Source: Candidatus Saccharimonadota bacterium (GTDB taxonomy: Bacteria; Patescibacteriota; Saccharimonadia; Saccharimonadales; Saccharimonadaceae). From it: a DNA stretch of 51,443 nucleotides. Every line of letters starts with the position of its first letter. The first letter of the stretch is position 1. The notes beneath the pieces were generated by a model. It saw only the letters and a program-made list of their open reading frames with translations. It made no database searches and was not told where the DNA came from. Shown one piece after another: positions 8,169 to 40,749 of this stretch. The DNA is taken from positions 1 to 51,443 of the forward strand of contig JAFRLS010000042.1 of the NCBI GenBank assembly GCA_017431105.1. The letters run 5' to 3'. The position numbers and the translations under genes are program-made.

Positions 8169-9392
8169 TTAGTCTCGTTTTAACATCACCGTAAACGCCT
8201 CGCTCGGAATATCAATTTTACCAAATCGCTTCATTCGCGCTTTGCCGCGTTTTTGTTTTTCAAGTAATTTCGCTTTACGGTCACGGTCACCAGTATGAAT
8301 TTTTACCGTCACATCCTTGCGATACGCACCAATCGTCTCACGCGCAATAATCCTTGCACCAATCGCCGCCTGAAGAGCCACTTCAAAATTCTGCCGTGGA
8401 ATCACTTCTTTTAACTTCTTTGTCACTTCACGCCCAATCGCATCAGCCTCACTACGATGCGCCATCACTGAAAGCGCATCCATTTTATTGCCAGCCACCA
8501 AAAAATCTACTCGCACCAAATCTTCTGCCCGGTAACCATTCAACTCATAATTAAACGATGCATAACCACTTGTCGCAGACTTCAGCTGATCATAAAACTC
8601 CGTCAACAAATTCGCCATCGGTGCTTCGAAATCTATTATTGCTCGCTCTTCAATATATGACAAATTCGTTTGATGACCACGTTTCTCATTAATCAAATTT
8701 AACACATTCCCAATCATAGTAGAGGGAACTATGATTTCCCCTTTCACCCACGGCTCCCGGATTTCTTTAACTTCACTCGCATCTGGCAAATCCGCTGCCG
8801 ATTTAATTTCAATAACTTCGCCATTATTCATCACGACTTCATAGTTTGTCGAAGGATTCGTCACAATTAAATCTAGCCCAAATTCCCTCTCCAATCTCTC
8901 ACGAATAATATCCATATGAAGAAGTCCCAAAAATCCAATCCGAAGCCCAAAACCAAGAACTGGCGAATTTTCTGGCTCAAATCGAAGCGCCGAATCTGAC
9001 AATGCTAATTTTTCAATCGCTTCTTTTAAATCCTTATATTGATCATTCGAAACGGGGAAAAACCCTGCATACACAAACGGCAATACGTTTTTGTAACCTG
9101 GCAATGCTTCTACTGCTGGATTTTTTACTAGCGTCACGGTATCACCAACTTTCGCTTCGCGCGTAGTCTTTAAATTAGTCACGATATAACCAATCTCACC
9201 TTCACTCAACTTTTCACGTGGTGACATTTTTGGCGTCAAAATCCCAACTTCGAGCGCTAAGCCTTTCGTGCCTGCCGCCATCATCAAAATTTCTGCATTC
9301 TTAGGAATTTCCCCATCAAAAATCCGCACATAAAGTACCACTCCGCGATAATCATCAAAATATGAATCAAATATCAACGCTCTAGTAGACAT
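8169..9392 (-). CDS. lepA: Elongation factor 4 (LepA), C-terminal part: domains II to CTD
   Basis: 407 aa matching EF4/LepA from domain II to the end: the domain II opening ALIFDSYFDDYRGVV, then domains III and V and the LepA-specific C-terminal domain ending in GKARMKRFGKIDIPSEAF. The GTPase domain is missing here and is a separate gene at 10080-10631. Together the two encode about 590 aa, the normal length of LepA, so little or nothing is lost. The frame extends upstream to 9473, but ATG 9392 is preferred because TGT-TATAAT (9399-9404) lies 6 nt before it and aligned homology begins there. This half has its own leaderless promoter, just after the terminator of the intervening gene. Confidence 0.9.
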   Translation of the reverse strand: MSTRALIFDSYFDDYRGVVLYVRIFDGEIPKNAEILMMAAGTKGLALEVGILTPKMSPREKLSEGEIGYIVTNLKTTREAKVGDTVTLVKNPAVEALPGYKNVLPFVYAGFFPVSNDQYKDLKEAIEKLALSDSALRFEPENSPVLGFGLRIGFLGLLHMDIIRERLEREFGLDLIVTNPSTNYEVVMNNGEVIEIKSAADLPDASEVKEIREPWVKGEIIVPSTMIGNVLNLINEKRGHQTNLSYIEERAIIDFEAPMANLLTEFYDQLKSATSGYASFNYELNGYRAEDLVRVDFLVAGNKMDALSVMAHRSEADAIGREVTKKLKEVIPRQNFEVALQAAIGARIIARETIGAYRKDVTVKIHTGDRDRKAKLLEKQKRGKARMKRFGKIDIPSEAFTVMLKRD

Positions 9393-9417
9393 AAAAATAT
9401 TATAACACAAAAATAGA

Positions 9418-9434
9418 CCCGGCGCTATGCCGGG
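9418..9434 (-). terminator. Rho-independent terminator of the histidine phosphatase gene
   Basis: CCCGGC-ATAGC-GCCGGG hairpin followed on the minus strand by TCTATTTTT. It starts 9 nt after the phosphatase stop codon and directly precedes the -10 box of the downstream lepA fragment. Confidence 0.8.
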
Positions 9435-9442
9435 CCCATGTG

Positions 9443-10009
9443 TCACTTTAGATCGAATATTTCCATTTCGCAATTTTTTAATAGTCGTAAATCATACATA
9501 CTACCAGATGCCGGCCGTCCATATACTACAGTATACACCGCCAGACCAAGCACACCATGCGAAAACACTAAAATATTTCCTGCGTCATATCTGGCTTTCA
9601 GTTCTTCAATAAAACTTCTCGCTCTATTCTCCATATGATCAAGAGTTTCCACTCCTAACCTTTCAGGCGAATCAGAACTATAGTCATAAAGTTCTATATA
9701 CTGTTCCCGAAGAATCCTCTCTCCAAACAATCCATCAAACTGTCGTTCCATCAGTCTGTCATCACATTTAAACTCGCAACCTTCCATACCGGCAGCTTTT
9801 AAGGCAATTTTGCAAGTACTTTTGGCTCGCTCATACGGCGAACAATAAATCGCTGCAAACTTCACGCCTAAATTTTTAATTAACACGCCAGCTTCCGCTG
9901 CCTGAACTTCACCTTTTTCTGTCAACTTAGCTCCCGAGTCATCATAAAAACTATAGCGCAGATTTGCTTCAGATTGTCCATGCCGCACAAAATACAACTT
10001 CAGTGACAT
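9443..10009 (-). CDS. Histidine phosphatase (phosphoglycerate mutase-like) family protein
   Basis: 188 aa with the branch-1 histidine phosphatase signature FVRHGQSEAN at about 7-16 (catalytic His), the YCSPYERAKST motif, and the distal FSHGVLG motif (second His). Substrate cannot be told; family members are mutases, sugar phosphatases or cobalamin-type phosphatases. It lies between the two halves of lepA and is built as an independent unit: TTGACT-17-TATAAT promoter, about 50-nt leader, extended SD GGGGGTGAG 5 nt before the ATG, and its own terminator. This differs from the leaderless lepA genes on both sides and suggests insertion. Confidence 0.88.
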   Translation of the reverse strand: MSLKLYFVRHGQSEANLRYSFYDDSGAKLTEKGEVQAAEAGVLIKNLGVKFAAIYCSPYERAKSTCKIALKAAGMEGCEFKCDDRLMERQFDGLFGERILREQYIELYDYSSDSPERLGVETLDHMENRARSFIEELKARYDAGNILVFSHGVLGLAVYTVVYGRPASGSMYDLRLLKNCEMEIFDLK

Positions 10010-10062
10010 ATTCTCACCCCCTTCAAAAAAATAATCTACTTTCTTTTTTAAGAACTATATAT

Positions 10063-10091
10063 ATTATATAATAGTACCCCTATCTAGTCAA
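10063..10091 (-). promoter_or_regulatory. Consensus promoter of the phosphatase gene
   Basis: TTGACT (10086-10091), 17-bp spacer, TATAAT (10063-10068), minus strand. The -35 hexamer forms the Leu-Thr codons near the end of the lepA GTPase fragment, so the end of that coding frame appears to come from the promoter segment. Confidence 0.7.
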
Positions 10092-10631
10092 TCTGCGCGG
10101 CGCTGGGCCTACTGCAACTATCTCATCCAATACTTTTTCCACATTTAACCCTGTTTTTGCCGACACTCCAATAATATCCTCACGTTTGCAACCCAGCAAA
10201 TTCATAATCTGCGCTGCCACACCCTCAACGTCCGCTGCTGGTAAATCTACTTTATTAATCACCGGGATAATCGTCAAATCTTGCTCCAACGCCAAGTACA
10301 CGTTCGCGAGCGTCTGTGCCTGAATCCCTTGCGTTGCATCCACTACTAACACCGCCGCCTCCACTGCTTGCAGGCTCCGTGAAACTTCGTACGAAAAATC
10401 TACGTGCCCCGGCGTATCAATCAGATTCAAAGTATAGCCTTTCCAATGCATCGTTACTGGCGTCAGTTTAATTGTGATACCTTTTTCACGTTCCAATTCC
10501 ATCGAATCGAGCAATTGGTCCTTCATTTCTCGCTTTTCAACCGTCCCCGTTAGCTCCATCATCCGATCCGCCAACGTAGACTTTCCATGATCAATATGCG
10601 CAATAATACAAAAATTTCGGATTTTTTCCAT
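10080..10631 (-). CDS. lepA: Elongation factor 4 (LepA), N-terminal GTPase domain as a separate gene
   Basis: 183 aa matching only the G domain of EF4: [19 protein letters not shown] (P-loop) at 1-19, switch I with [16 protein letters not shown] (G3), NKVD (G4) and GVSAKTG (G5). It stops at PAPRRLTR, at the linker where intact LepA continues into domain II. The remaining domains are encoded at 8169-9392. No frameshift remnant of domain II follows, so this is a clean split, not a decayed gene. TGG-TATAAT lies 8 nt before the ATG. Whether the halves assemble into a working factor cannot be told from sequence. Confidence 0.9.
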
Positions 10632-14207: not shown

Positions 14208-14474
14208 TTATTTTCTTAGACCTAGCTTCGCCACAGTCTTTTTGTAAAGCTCAAAATCGGTTGTTTCGAGGTATTTTAGCAATTTCTTACGTTTCCCCAC
14301 CATCTGCATCAAACCTCTTTTAGCCATAAAGTCATGTTTATTATTCTTCACATGCTCAGTCACTTCTTTGATGCGCTCTGTGAGAATAGCCACTTGAACT
14401 TCAGGAGAACCGACGTCGTTCTTATTACGAGCGACCTTGGCAATAGCTTTATCCTTATTCTCTTTTGTTATCAT
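14208..14474 (-). CDS. rpsO: 30S ribosomal protein uS15
   Basis: 88 aa, the normal length, with the S15 pattern from the N-terminal helix through GSPEVQVAILTERI and HMKNNKHD-like region to the C-terminal YLETTDFELYKK stretch. It binds the 16S rRNA central domain early in 30S assembly. TGA-TATAAT (14481-14486) lies exactly 6 nt before the ATG and there is no SD, so even a ribosomal protein gene here appears leaderless. It is divergent from truB, with only 35 nt between the two start codons. Confidence 0.96.
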   Translation of the reverse strand: MITKENKDKAIAKVARNKNDVGSPEVQVAILTERIKEVTEHVKNNKHDFMAKRGLMQMVGKRKKLLKYLETTDFELYKKTVAKLGLRK

Positions 14475-14509
14475 TGCCCCATTATATCACATCTGTTATA
14501 ATAACGCAA

Positions 14510-15220
14510 ATGGAAGATCAGATTATTCTTATTGACAAACCAACTGGCATATCTAGCTTTGGTGTTGTAGCGAAAGTTCGTCGGCAATTACGCGATGAAT
14601 TTACTCACAAAGTCAAAGTTGGCCACACCGGCACTTTAGATCCCTTCGCTACCGGTCTTCTCATTTTACTTTCTGGTAAAATGACTAAAAAATCCAATGA
14701 ATTTCTAAAACTGGATAAAGTTTACGAAGCCACCTTGAGGCTCGGTTACACTTCCACTACTGGTGACCCTGAAGGGGAGATTCAACCTTATCCCAATTCA
14801 GGGGATTCCGGAAGCTGCTGCCGAGGATTAGCGCCCGAGCCCCGTGAAGACGGGCGCGAGGGACGCGACCCCGAATGGGACAAGGTTGAATCTACCCTCA
14901 AGTCGTTCATTGGTGAGATTGAGCAAACTCCACCAAAATTCAGCGCCATCAAAATCAACGGCGAACGCGCCTATAAACTCGCTCGCAAAAACCAAGATTT
15001 CGAAATTCCCTCCCGCAAAATCACTATCTATAGCATAGAAATACTAGAATACAACTACCCCGAACTCAAAATCCGCTGTCACGTCTCTTCCGGCACTTAC
15101 ATCCGCACTTTAGCCGAAGACATCGGCAAAGCACTAGATACCGGCGCCTATCTCATCGCACTTCGCCGCACTAAAATCGGCAATTTCGATATCAAAAACG
15201 CCACTAAACTTGTGCTATAA
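14510..15220 (+). CDS. truB: tRNA pseudouridine(55) synthase TruB with in-frame palindromic insert
   Basis: 236 aa. Makes pseudouridine 55 in the T-loop of tRNAs. Catalytic motif VGHTGTLDPFATG (Asp about 48) is intact, as are the TSTTGDPEGEI, GEIEQTPPKFSAIKINGERAY and SSGTYIRTLAEDIG motifs. Between GDPEGEI and the ESTLKSF helix there are about 20 extra residues (about 95-125, with SCCRGLAPEPRE), encoded by a GC-rich palindrome. The C-terminal PUA domain is absent. Start at 14510: TGT-TATAAT 7 nt upstream, no SD. The frame extends to 14465 but that part overlaps the rpsO promoter. Confidence 0.93.
   Translation: MEDQIILIDKPTGISSFGVVAKVRRQLRDEFTHKVKVGHTGTLDPFATGLLILLSGKMTKKSNEFLKLDKVYEATLRLGYTSTTGDPEGEIQPYPNSGDSGSCCRGLAPEPREDGREGRDPEWDKVESTLKSFIGEIEQTPPKFSAIKINGERAYKLARKNQDFEIPSRKITIYSIEILEYNYPELKIRCHVSSGTYIRTLAEDIGKALDTGAYLIALRRTKIGNFDIKNATKLVL
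14770..14901. repeat. GC-rich palindromic element in frame within truB
   Basis: Outer arms about 14778-14804 and 14869-14892 are near-perfect reverse complements (one substitution-type and few indel differences), and pairing continues weakly outwards. A second hairpin inside pairs GCGCCCG (14831-14837) with CGGGCGC (14850-14856). The reading frame stays open through it. Base composition is much more GC-rich than the rest of the gene. Confidence 0.75.
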
Positions 15221-18301: not shown

Positions 18302-19381
18302 ATGAAAATTCGCGAAAATATCCCCATTTCTACTCTTACTACCATGCGACTTGGCGGCCCCGCCCGCTATGTTATTGATGTCGAAAAACCCGAAGAAATT
18401 CCCGAAGCTTATAACTTTGCTAAATCCAAAAGCCTCCCCACCTTCATCTTAGGCGGTGGCGCCAACACTATCGGTCACGACGAAGGCTTCGACGGCGTCA
18501 TCATCAAATCCAATCTAAAGGGCATTATTGAAGCGGGTGGCGCTCAATACTCTTTCGAAGGGCCTAAGACTCGGGCGAGCGCCCCGGAGCGGCCCGAGAA
18601 AGAGTATGAGCGACAGGCCCCGCTTCAAATTACTGCTTTTTCGGGCGAGGAATGGGACGCCGTCGTCGCCTACGCCTGCGAGCGTGGTCTTACCGGCATC
18701 GAAGCCCTCAGTAAAATCCCCGGTCTCGCCGGCGCCGCCCCAGTTCAAAACATTGGTGCCTACGGCCAAGACATTTCTCAGACTCTCGTAAGTATCGAAG
18801 TCTACGACACGCTCGAAAACAAATTCAAAACTTTAGATAAAAACGATCTTCAATTCTCTTACCGCAAAAGCATTCTAAACACTACCGCCAAAAATCGTTA
18901 TTTCGTAATTTCTATTACTTTAGAATTAAAACCCGGCACCATGTCGCATCCGTTCTATAATTCAATCGAAAAATACATCATAGCCAACAATTGTACTGAT
19001 TTTTCGCCCGCCGGTGTCCGCGATATTGTCAGTAAAATCCGCGCCGACAAGCTCCCAGACCCTAAAGAAAAAGCCAGCGCTGGTTCATTTTTCAAGAATG
19101 TTTATCTTACCGAAAAAGAAGCTACCGAAGCCGAAAAGAAAGACTATCCAGTTTATCGTGGCCATGATGGTCTCAAAATCAATTCTGGTTGGCTTATTGA
19201 ACAAGCCGGTTTTTCCGACCAACTCATCCACGGCATACGCGTTAATAAAAAAGCCGCTCTTGTCTTAATCAACGAATCCGCCAAATCTTATGCCGACCTC
19301 GCCGCCGCCCGCCAAGAAATCATCGACAAAATCCAGAAAGACTTCGGCTATAAACTTGAACAGGAACCTGTAGAAATATGA
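18302..19381 (+). CDS. murB: UDP-N-acetylenolpyruvoylglucosamine reductase MurB with in-frame palindromic insert
   Basis: 359 aa. FAD-dependent reduction of the enolpyruvyl group to give UDP-MurNAc for peptidoglycan. FAD-binding motifs ILGGGANT and IPGLAGAAPVQNIGAYG and the catalytic-region motif KASAGSFFKNV are present. Residues about 76-109 (with SFEGPKTRASAPERPEKEYE) are an insertion compared with ordinary MurB, where the strand before AGENW-like EEWDAVV follows directly; they are encoded by a palindrome. TGT-TATAAT lies 6 nt before the ATG, no SD. Its stop overlaps the folD start (ATGA). Confidence 0.95.
   Translation: MKIRENIPISTLTTMRLGGPARYVIDVEKPEEIPEAYNFAKSKSLPTFILGGGANTIGHDEGFDGVIIKSNLKGIIEAGGAQYSFEGPKTRASAPERPEKEYERQAPLQITAFSGEEWDAVVAYACERGLTGIEALSKIPGLAGAAPVQNIGAYGQDISQTLVSIEVYDTLENKFKTLDKNDLQFSYRKSILNTTAKNRYFVISITLELKPGTMSHPFYNSIEKYIIANNCTDFSPAGVRDIVSKIRADKLPDPKEKASAGSFFKNVYLTEKEATEAEKKDYPVYRGHDGLKINSGWLIEQAGFSDQLIHGIRVNKKAALVLINESAKSYADLAAARQEIIDKIQKDFGYKLEQEPVEI
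18530..18626. repeat. GC-rich palindromic element in frame within murB
   Basis: Outer arms GAAGCGGG/CCCCGCTTC, then CGCTCA(a)TACTCTTTC pairing with GAAAGAGTATGAGCG, and an inner CTCGGGC/GCCCGAG pair. The core contains GCGCCCCGGAGCGGC, similar to the element at the window start. The reading frame is preserved across about 97 bp. Confidence 0.78.
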
Positions 19382-39315: not shown

Positions 39316-40683
39316 ATGGGAAAAAAATATGATTTTGACTACATCATCATCGGTAGTGGTCCAGCCGGCAGTACAATGGCCCTAAAACTTGCTAAAAAAA
39401 CTAAGAAACGCGTCGCTATGATTGAAAGCCATATTTTTGGTGGCAGTAACCTTAATACTCGCGATATTCCCTATGCCGTAAGTTTAGGTTTTTCACATAC
39501 GTTTGCCAAACTTTCTAATTACCCCGAAATTGGTGGGCAAGAATTGCATTATAATTTCCCTACCGTCGTTTCACACCAAGAACACACTACTTCTCTTCTC
39601 GCTAAAGAAAGTTTTAAAAAATTCGATTCCACCAACATTACTTGCATTTCTGGCCAAGGTCAACTTATCGATGAACACACAGTCGCAGTTGGCAAAAAAC
39701 AATATACTACAGCTAACTTTATTTTAGCCACTGGCTCCAAACTAGATACCGGTAAAATCATCGGGTTAGATTCTGTCAATTATCTTACTCCAGACACCGC
39801 TCTCAAAGTTCGTCGCTTACCTAAATTTGCCCTCATTGTTGGTGGTGGCCCCACTGGCTGCGAAATTGCTGAATATTTTGCTGAACTCGGCGCCAAGGTC
39901 ATCATCATGGAAAGTGCTAGCCGCCTACTTCCAAAGGAGGATGAAGAAGTTAGCGAAGCTATCACCGAATACTTCACTACCGAACTAGGAATTATGGTCA
40001 CTGCTAATTCTAAAGTTGTAGCCTTGGAACAAGACAATATTAGCAAAAGAGTCATTTTTAGCACCAATCATCAAGAAAAATTCGTTCGTATTGACTGTGT
40101 TGTGCTGGCTACCGGTACCAAACCCTACACTGATTACGGTCTCGAAAATGCCAACGTAAAATACGATTCGGATGGCATCATCGTTAATAAATTTTTCCAA
40201 ACTTCCTCTAAGAATATTTACGCTGTTGGCGATGCCATCGGCGAAGGATCTTCCACTGAGCTTGCAAAATACCAAGCTTCGCTCCTTGCCTCCAACCTAA
40301 TCGAAAAAACCAAAAATTACGCCAACTATAAAGGCTTTATCCGCCTGGTTAATACCTATCCAGAAATTGCTACTATTGGCTCCACCGAAGCTGAGCTCAA
40401 TAAACAAAAAATTAAACACAAAAAAATCGTCGTATATCTCAAAGAACTTCCCGCCAGCAAGACTGAACGCCTAGATTATGGCTTCATTAAATTCCTCACC
40501 GATCACAACAATCACATCCTCGGCGCTACAATCGTGGCTCCAAACGCTGGATTAATGGCTGAAGAGATTTCTATCGCTATCCGCCACCGCCTAACTGCTC
40601 TCGAAATCGCCAGCACACCACACATTGCAAACAGTTTCAATTATGCCATCAAACTAGCCGCCAAACGTATTATTAAAAAATAA
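39316..40683 (+). CDS. FAD-dependent pyridine nucleotide-disulfide oxidoreductase family protein lacking the redox cysteines
   Basis: 455 aa with the fold of dihydrolipoamide dehydrogenase/mercuric reductase: FAD motif GSGPAG at 13-18, NAD(P) motif VGGGPTGCEIAEYF near 175-188, the AVGDAIGE FAD motif near 298-305 and a dimerisation domain. The active-site CxxxxC of GGTCLNVGCIP is replaced by GGSNLNTRDIP, with Asn45 and Asp50 at the cysteine positions. The C-terminal His-Glu dyad is also missing (TPHIANSFNY). It cannot do disulfide chemistry in the normal way and may be an NAD(P)H oxidase or quinone reductase. SD GAGGT; follows the ATP-cone-like gene by 9 nt. Confidence 0.9.
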   Translation: MGKKYDFDYIIIGSGPAGSTMALKLAKKTKKRVAMIESHIFGGSNLNTRDIPYAVSLGFSHTFAKLSNYPEIGGQELHYNFPTVVSHQEHTTSLLAKESFKKFDSTNITCISGQGQLIDEHTVAVGKKQYTTANFILATGSKLDTGKIIGLDSVNYLTPDTALKVRRLPKFALIVGGGPTGCEIAEYFAELGAKVIIMESASRLLPKEDEEVSEAITEYFTTELGIMVTANSKVVALEQDNISKRVIFSTNHQEKFVRIDCVVLATGTKPYTDYGLENANVKYDSDGIIVNKFFQTSSKNIYAVGDAIGEGSSTELAKYQASLLASNLIEKTKNYANYKGFIRLVNTYPEIATIGSTEAELNKQKIKHKKIVVYLKELPASKTERLDYGFIKFLTDHNNHILGATIVAPNAGLMAEEISIAIRHRLTALEIASTPHIANSFNYAIKLAAKRIIKK

Positions 40684-40723
40684 AAATCGACCTAAGTTAG
40701 GGGGGTAACTTAGGTCGATTTTT
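40682..40723 (+). terminator. 18-bp perfect-stem terminator with G6 loop
   Basis: Positions 40682-40699 pair perfectly with 40706-40723 around GGGGGG; A5 on one side, T5 on the other. It separates the oxidoreductase gene from the convergent initiator tRNA. Confidence 0.9.
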
Positions 40724-40749
40724 ATTCTAAAACGCTCAATTTTAGAACG

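Follow-up and report, generated by a model that had tools for sequence, protein, structure and literature searches.

Palindromic elements within coding sequence

Rickettsia palindromic elements (RPEs) are multi-copy palindromes of about 150 bp that are found in frame in unrelated genes and are apparently tolerated by the proteins concerned, and MITEs are short, non-autonomous, repeated elements capable of in-frame fusions (PMC10969869). The REP sequences and the GTAG- and CGTC-tagged palindromic repeats associated with RAYT transposases are small palindromes, some of which lie inside genes (PMC3733652). The window analysed here, the whole 51,443-nucleotide contig JAFRLS010000042.1 of a Candidatus Saccharimonadota bacterium, contains within its murB gene a palindrome whose family can be compared with each of these. 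It shares with the RPEs the presence of a multi-copy palindrome in frame in unrelated protein-coding genes (42 of 42 in frame), but only its ~41-nt core is conserved and its arms are locus-specific, whereas RPEs are conserved in sequence along their length and have a conserved peptide; also unlike RPEs, its core is open in three antisense frames and one sense frame, and its copies occur in two phyla. Like the REPs, it is a small palindrome following the logic of a hairpin, with inverted dimers and tag-like flanks in Bifidobacterium, but no Y1/RAYT gene was found in the carriers tested, its stems are locus-specific and its Saccharibacteria copies have no tag. Like the MITEs, it is short, non-autonomous, repeated and in frame, but its centre is conserved and its ends are variable, conserved terminal inverted repeats are lacking, and no partner transposase was found. 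Integron attC sites conserve structure over sequence, fold in a strand-specific manner and carry extrahelical bases. These features recur in the present element, but attC sites keep their ends and vary the middle, the reverse of the present arrangement, in which variable ends enclose a fixed middle. Since the family, like the RPEs, lands in frame in housekeeping genes, without conservation along its length, and forms a REP-like hairpin with no Y1 transposase in the genomes tested, we file it under protein-coding palindromic repeats, where the RPEs are the closest known kind and the combination of a constant core with variable arms is new.

The palindrome in murB

The murB ORF (18302–19381, + strand, 359 aa), assigned by ORF calling and MurB homology, carries the element in frame, with the core-sense strand coinciding with the murB sense strand. 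The first-pass annotation had placed an imperfect palindrome at 18530–18626; the palindrome and its frame stand, but folding puts its extent at 18528–18628, and it belongs to the 'class 2' subtype of family A. From the outside inwards it comprises, all on the + strand, i) an outermost variable arm, TTGAAGCGGG (18528–18537), which pairs in the fold with CCCGCTTCAA (18619–18628), ii) an inner variable arm with one bulged base, CGCTC-a-ATACTCTTTC (18541–18556, from sequence and fold), paired with GAAAGAGTAT-GAGCG (18598–18612), and iii) a conserved core of ~41 nt, GAAGGGCCTAAGACTCGGGCGAGCGCCCCGGAGCGGCCCGA (18557–18597), recognized by comparison with other copies and bearing an apical GGGC-GAGC-GCCC hairpin. 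The core string described earlier, GCGCCCCGGAGCGGC, was found inside this palindrome, and the arms, given as 20–25 bp, turned out to be longer, with about 10 + 5 + 10 paired bases per side, bulged, around the ~41-nt core. The predicted DNA fold of the element has an energy of -35.5 kcal/mol against a shuffle mean of -17.1 (z = -6.5), and the RNA fold -59.9 kcal/mol against -35.4 (z = -6.6), with 0 of 200 shuffles matching either. The covariance model matched murB at 18548–18606 (+) with E = 7.5e-11, the runner-up in the window having E = 0.18. The murB core had also been said to match an element at the window start; with a best E of only 0.18, the latter is not a detectable family member.

MurB homologs were present in 25 of the 26 genomes searched. 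The segment GVIIK..EEWD spans 165 nt here, 177 nt in genome G004 and 81 nt in most members of the genus, which marks the murB insert as a gain. The net gain relative to most genus members is 84 nt, in frame, so the ~30 added residues proposed at first are real but number 28, and they are missing from almost all relatives compared; the insert is thus not a conserved feature of Saccharibacteria MurB. The insert of G004 is a different palindrome with a family-B-like core (see below) in the same loop, and, judging from these sequences, the loop appears to have been hit twice. In an AlphaFold2 model of MurB (overall pLDDT 90.4), residues 87–93 and 95–102 have pLDDT values below 50, and the insert is predicted to be a disordered loop between two strands; such modelling had been suggested in the first-pass annotation.

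A repeat family with a constant core and variable arms

A BLAST search with the murB element yielded five more core matches in its own genome, and the covariance model, built from 46 distinct loci and covering the ~41-nt core and the inner arms, found 13 family A copies there; core searches showed dozens more across the genus (the sequence examined included ~530 kb of this genome and 694 kb of genome G001). The family is multi-copy, and the insert in murB is one of its members. The proposal that the repeat family is, or once was, active and tolerates being translated, for which a profile scan had been suggested, is borne out by these copies and by the in-frame inserts described below. A consensus-core search of 40 relatives detected copies throughout the genus and nothing convincing outside it. 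Among 60 copies compared, the ~41-nt core is often identical between copies, and the arms of ~20–25 bp pair with each other in nearly every copy while differing from those of other loci. The murB core is near-identical to those of two other loci (L087 and L088) and related to the core of most copies, GAGGACCGTAAGCTTGGGCGAGCGCCCTTGAGCGTGTCCGA.

Only tRNAs reached the Rfam gathering threshold in the window, 14 element loci gave no match at E ≤ 1, and Bifidobacterium copies gave only sub-threshold miRNA matches, read as chance. With no match at gathering score, identity with a known RNA family was rejected. A literature search, mostly of papers available without subscription, found no description of this repeat in Saccharibacteria or Bifidobacterium.

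A second family in truB and other repeats of the window

The truB ORF (14465–15220, +) also harbours a palindromic element; its core is another one, and it belongs to a second family, designated family B. Detected as an inverted repeat (I2) and by nhmmer, it spans 14773–14898 (+), with arms at 14773–14795 and 14876–14898 and a two-hairpin core at 14799–14873; the nhmmer match to this copy, which belonged to the training set, had E = 8.4e-13. The family B core is ~78 nt long. The truB and murB elements had been regarded as the same sort of insert in a single family. The former holds, but the latter does not, as the truB core of ~78 nt is distinct and the palindrome was not reported by the family A core model even with filters off at E ≤ 10. 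The truB element was therefore rejected as a family A member, and the AAGAC-(TC)-GGGCG string common to both is no evidence for a single family. The truB gene of G001 likewise carries a family B element. Family B is essentially missing from Bifidobacterium, where two weak matches were obtained.

Three further regions of the window were inspected. A GC-rich inverted repeat lies at 31–82, at the very start of the contig, which likely broke at this repeat. At 8169–10631 (-), lepA is split into two ORFs of 183 and 434 aa; the ~720-bp stretch between the halves carries a 188-aa ORF, followed by fresh promoter-like sequence and an ATG. In G001, lepA is intact and has a family A element at the corresponding place. 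Considered as an autonomous relative of the element, the 188-aa ORF was rejected, as its translation suggests a histidine phosphatase that has a start of its own. A perfect 21-bp inverted repeat with a 6-nt loop (40679–40726), at the end of the ORF 39316–40683 and adjoining a tRNA gene, is probably a bidirectional terminator.

Maintenance of reading frame in host genes

Of the 77 elements in the first set, 42 are located in genes having a homolog in another sampled genome; for the remaining 35, no homolog spans the site. In each of the 42, one alignment runs through the element in frame, and the absence of frame-breaking copies among them is expected if selection removes such copies. The host genes, named from their translations, include those for MurB, TopA, MetK, IleRS and TsaD. 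On the core-sense strand, the consensus core can be read through in a single frame, EDRKLGRAPLSVSE, the other two being interrupted by stops, and on the antisense strand all three frames are open. Many insertion sites are not common between species.

Structure and covariation

In the alignment of 46 loci, 96.3% of the cells in stem columns are paired, compared with 77.0% after shuffling, and the covariation score is 0.557 against 0.181, with 0 of 500 shuffles reaching the observed values. Double changes occur in 220 stem cells (75 expected), and stem covariation collapses when the partners are slid by 1–3 columns. A further pair links the apical loop (R31) to the internal loop (Y42), being GC in 29 loci and AU in 17 with no exception, and covaries in both backgrounds of the adjoining stem pair; it is not strict in Bifidobacterium, where L341 and L350 have A:C. 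The core folds into a small hairpin with a probable contact between its loop and the internal loop. Since covarying arms are compatible both with selection and with the copying of one arm from the other, covariation alone is not decisive as to mechanism. Identical cores at different loci are flanked by unrelated yet self-complementary arms, and differences between orthologous Bifidobacterium copies are largely compensatory or wobble changes.

The mismatches are strand-biased. On the core-sense strand of the Saccharibacteria copies there are 79 G.T against 29 A.C mismatches after de-duplication (p 1.6e-6), or 51 against 15 when counted per element, and Bifidobacterium copies have 14 against 3. 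Genes antisense to the core give 29 G.T and 2 A.C, and in genes running in the same direction the bias is weak (12 and 8). The bias on the core-sense strand in antisense genes argues against an mRNA structure and for a fold of that strand, and from these counts it seems to be the single-stranded fold of the core-sense strand, not the mRNA, that matters; the bias could instead have come from mutation during hairpin replication rather than from selection. Single unpaired bases number 60 in the 5' arm and 23 in the 3' arm and are typically several bp inside the outer end.

Origin of the arms

For 24 coding copies, the medians are 72 nt (net insert) and 85 nt (palindrome). On average the two lengths differ by 14.8 ± 2.6 nt, close to the median outer helix of 11 bp, the boundaries being taken from orthologs at ~70–80% DNA identity rather than from same-species empty sites. 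For the copies in TopA and RluB-like genes, orthologs free of the element align with the outer arm on the downstream side, leaving the upstream one as extra sequence; the MetK copy and one in TsaD have two arms that both seem to be new. A native outer arm is also visible in promoter copies, and several intergenic copies end within a -10 box that continues on one side only. In six intergenic copies (L199, L222, L255, L079, L063 and L064), a host promoter follows immediately downstream, and the right arm continues into its -10 box, TGTTATAAT or similar. In GC content, the outer arms follow the host, with 0.41 in Saccharibacteria and 0.61 in Bifidobacterium, whereas the core is fixed at 0.61–0.65.

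From a net insert shorter than the palindrome by about one outer helix, the alignment of the downstream arm and the GC pattern, we infer that one outer arm would belong to the host sequence and would have been copied in inverted orientation to give the other. In murB, where a net insert of 84 nt stands against a palindrome of ~100 nt, the pair 18528–18537/18619–18628 is probably host sequence on one side. Insertion of the whole unit, with both arms new, is disfavoured on average by the size of the net insert, though not at every locus. No direct target-site duplication was noticed in the flanks listed. Bifidobacterium copies have GGAG-like left and GGTC-like right flanks outside the variable arms, and no flanking tag was found in the Saccharibacteria copies; a tag lying outside the arms suggests that in Bifidobacterium the arms may be internal to the element instead of being copied from the target.

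Distribution

Of the 27 genomes sampled from this genus of gut Saccharibacteria, 17 gave family A matches with the covariance model, against 0 of 220 other Saccharimonadales. In Bifidobacterium, 69 of 112 species were positive, with as many as 49 copies; among 346 Actinomycetes the sole match was the Bifidobacterium query genome itself. An exact core scan of 84,980 species, one genome per species, returned, among the matches listed, Saccharibacteria, with many ruminant gut samples, and at least four Bifidobacterium species, and no Rickettsia. Cores from Saccharibacteria and Bifidobacterium are in some cases the same along 37 nt, and the simplest reading of these sequences is an exchange of the element between the two. 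The Bifidobacterium copies often form divergent inverted pairs ~115–185 bp apart that are reminiscent of REP dimers (e.g. G041:C11:141587/141708, G042:C12:269967/270112 and G342:C12:160707/160833).

No copies were present in the viral_contigs or plasmids sets. One copy (L371; MT837054.1, 9089–9123) lies close to the end of a 9.2-kb scaffold from human faeces, which is unannotated and was deposited as a bacteriophage. Spread by phage or plasmid was rejected, this single scaffold copy providing no convincing vector.

Mechanism and alternative explanations

We regard it as probable, on balance, that the family is a non-autonomous, multi-copy palindromic element that moves as a single strand, has an arm copied from its target and was acquired by exchange with Bifidobacterium. 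Its copies have three layers: a near-invariant ~41-nt core forming a small hairpin, inner arms of ~10–13 bp that may be of any sequence so long as they pair, and an outermost arm of ~6–11 bp, which on the 5' side is often set off by a single bulged base. Movement would take place through the single-stranded folded form of the core-sense strand, which at insertion would snap back and copy a short stretch of the target, giving each copy its own arm. The survivors would be in-frame, stop-free copies in loops, where the host protein would tolerate a disordered loop. The family probably reached the Saccharibacteria genus through horizontal exchange with Bifidobacterium. That the element is an inverted target-copying mobile element, inserted by snap-back synthesis with an enzyme common to Bifidobacterium and the one Saccharibacteria genus, is put forward tentatively.

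The conserved loops, variable covarying helices and probable loop contact would also suit a structured RNA, i.e. a riboswitch-like regulatory motif or small ribozyme whose arms diverged by compensatory evolution without target copying, and the way in which orthologous Bifidobacterium copies differ, by compensatory and wobble changes, points in the same direction. However, in antisense genes the wobble bias tracks the core strand, opposite to the mRNA (29 G.T against 2 A.C), identical cores carry wholly unrelated arms, many insertion sites are species-specific, and Rfam returned no match in the Saccharibacteria loci and only the sub-threshold chance matches to miRNAs in Bifidobacterium, all of which make such an RNA unlikely. 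A strand-specific folded hairpin with a bulged base in its stem, together with the GGAG-like tag and the inverted dimers of Bifidobacterium, recalls instead the hairpins of REP/RAYT or IS200/IS605-type systems, which a Y1 (HUH) transposase mobilizes in the form of single-stranded DNA. This is improbable here, as PF01797 was found in 0 of 22 carrier genomes (18 Saccharibacteria and 4 Bifidobacterium; 6 of 14 controls positive), which led us to reject this enzyme as the motor, and as the stems are locus-specific, whereas REP families are sorted by sequence content and structure (PMC3733652). A reverse transcriptase was also rejected as the motor, PF00078 being missing from several carriers (G018, G010 and four Bifidobacterium genomes). 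We give little credence to insertion of the core into the loop of short palindromes already in the genome, which would leave both outer arms native: it agrees with a net insert smaller than the palindrome, but a single outer arm accounts for the difference of 14.8 nt better than two would (22 nt), and orthologs free of the element match the downstream arm alone of the copies in TopA and RluB-like genes.

Significance

Protein-coding palindromes are rare and chiefly known from Rickettsia, and they are now extended to Saccharibacteria. The design of a constant core with variable arms makes the mode of insertion testable, since each copy appears to record its own target, and the cultured Bifidobacterium species with up to dozens of copies open the element to laboratory study. 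Restriction to one Saccharibacteria genus and Bifidobacterium provides a sequence clue to the host of these uncultured gut Saccharibacteria. The sharing may be a sign that these tiny gut parasites and a possible host have exchanged genes; the direction of exchange and a host–epibiont link between the two would be inferred from it. If true, the common element would be a genetic footprint of a host–epibiont relationship between Bifidobacterium and Saccharibacteria.
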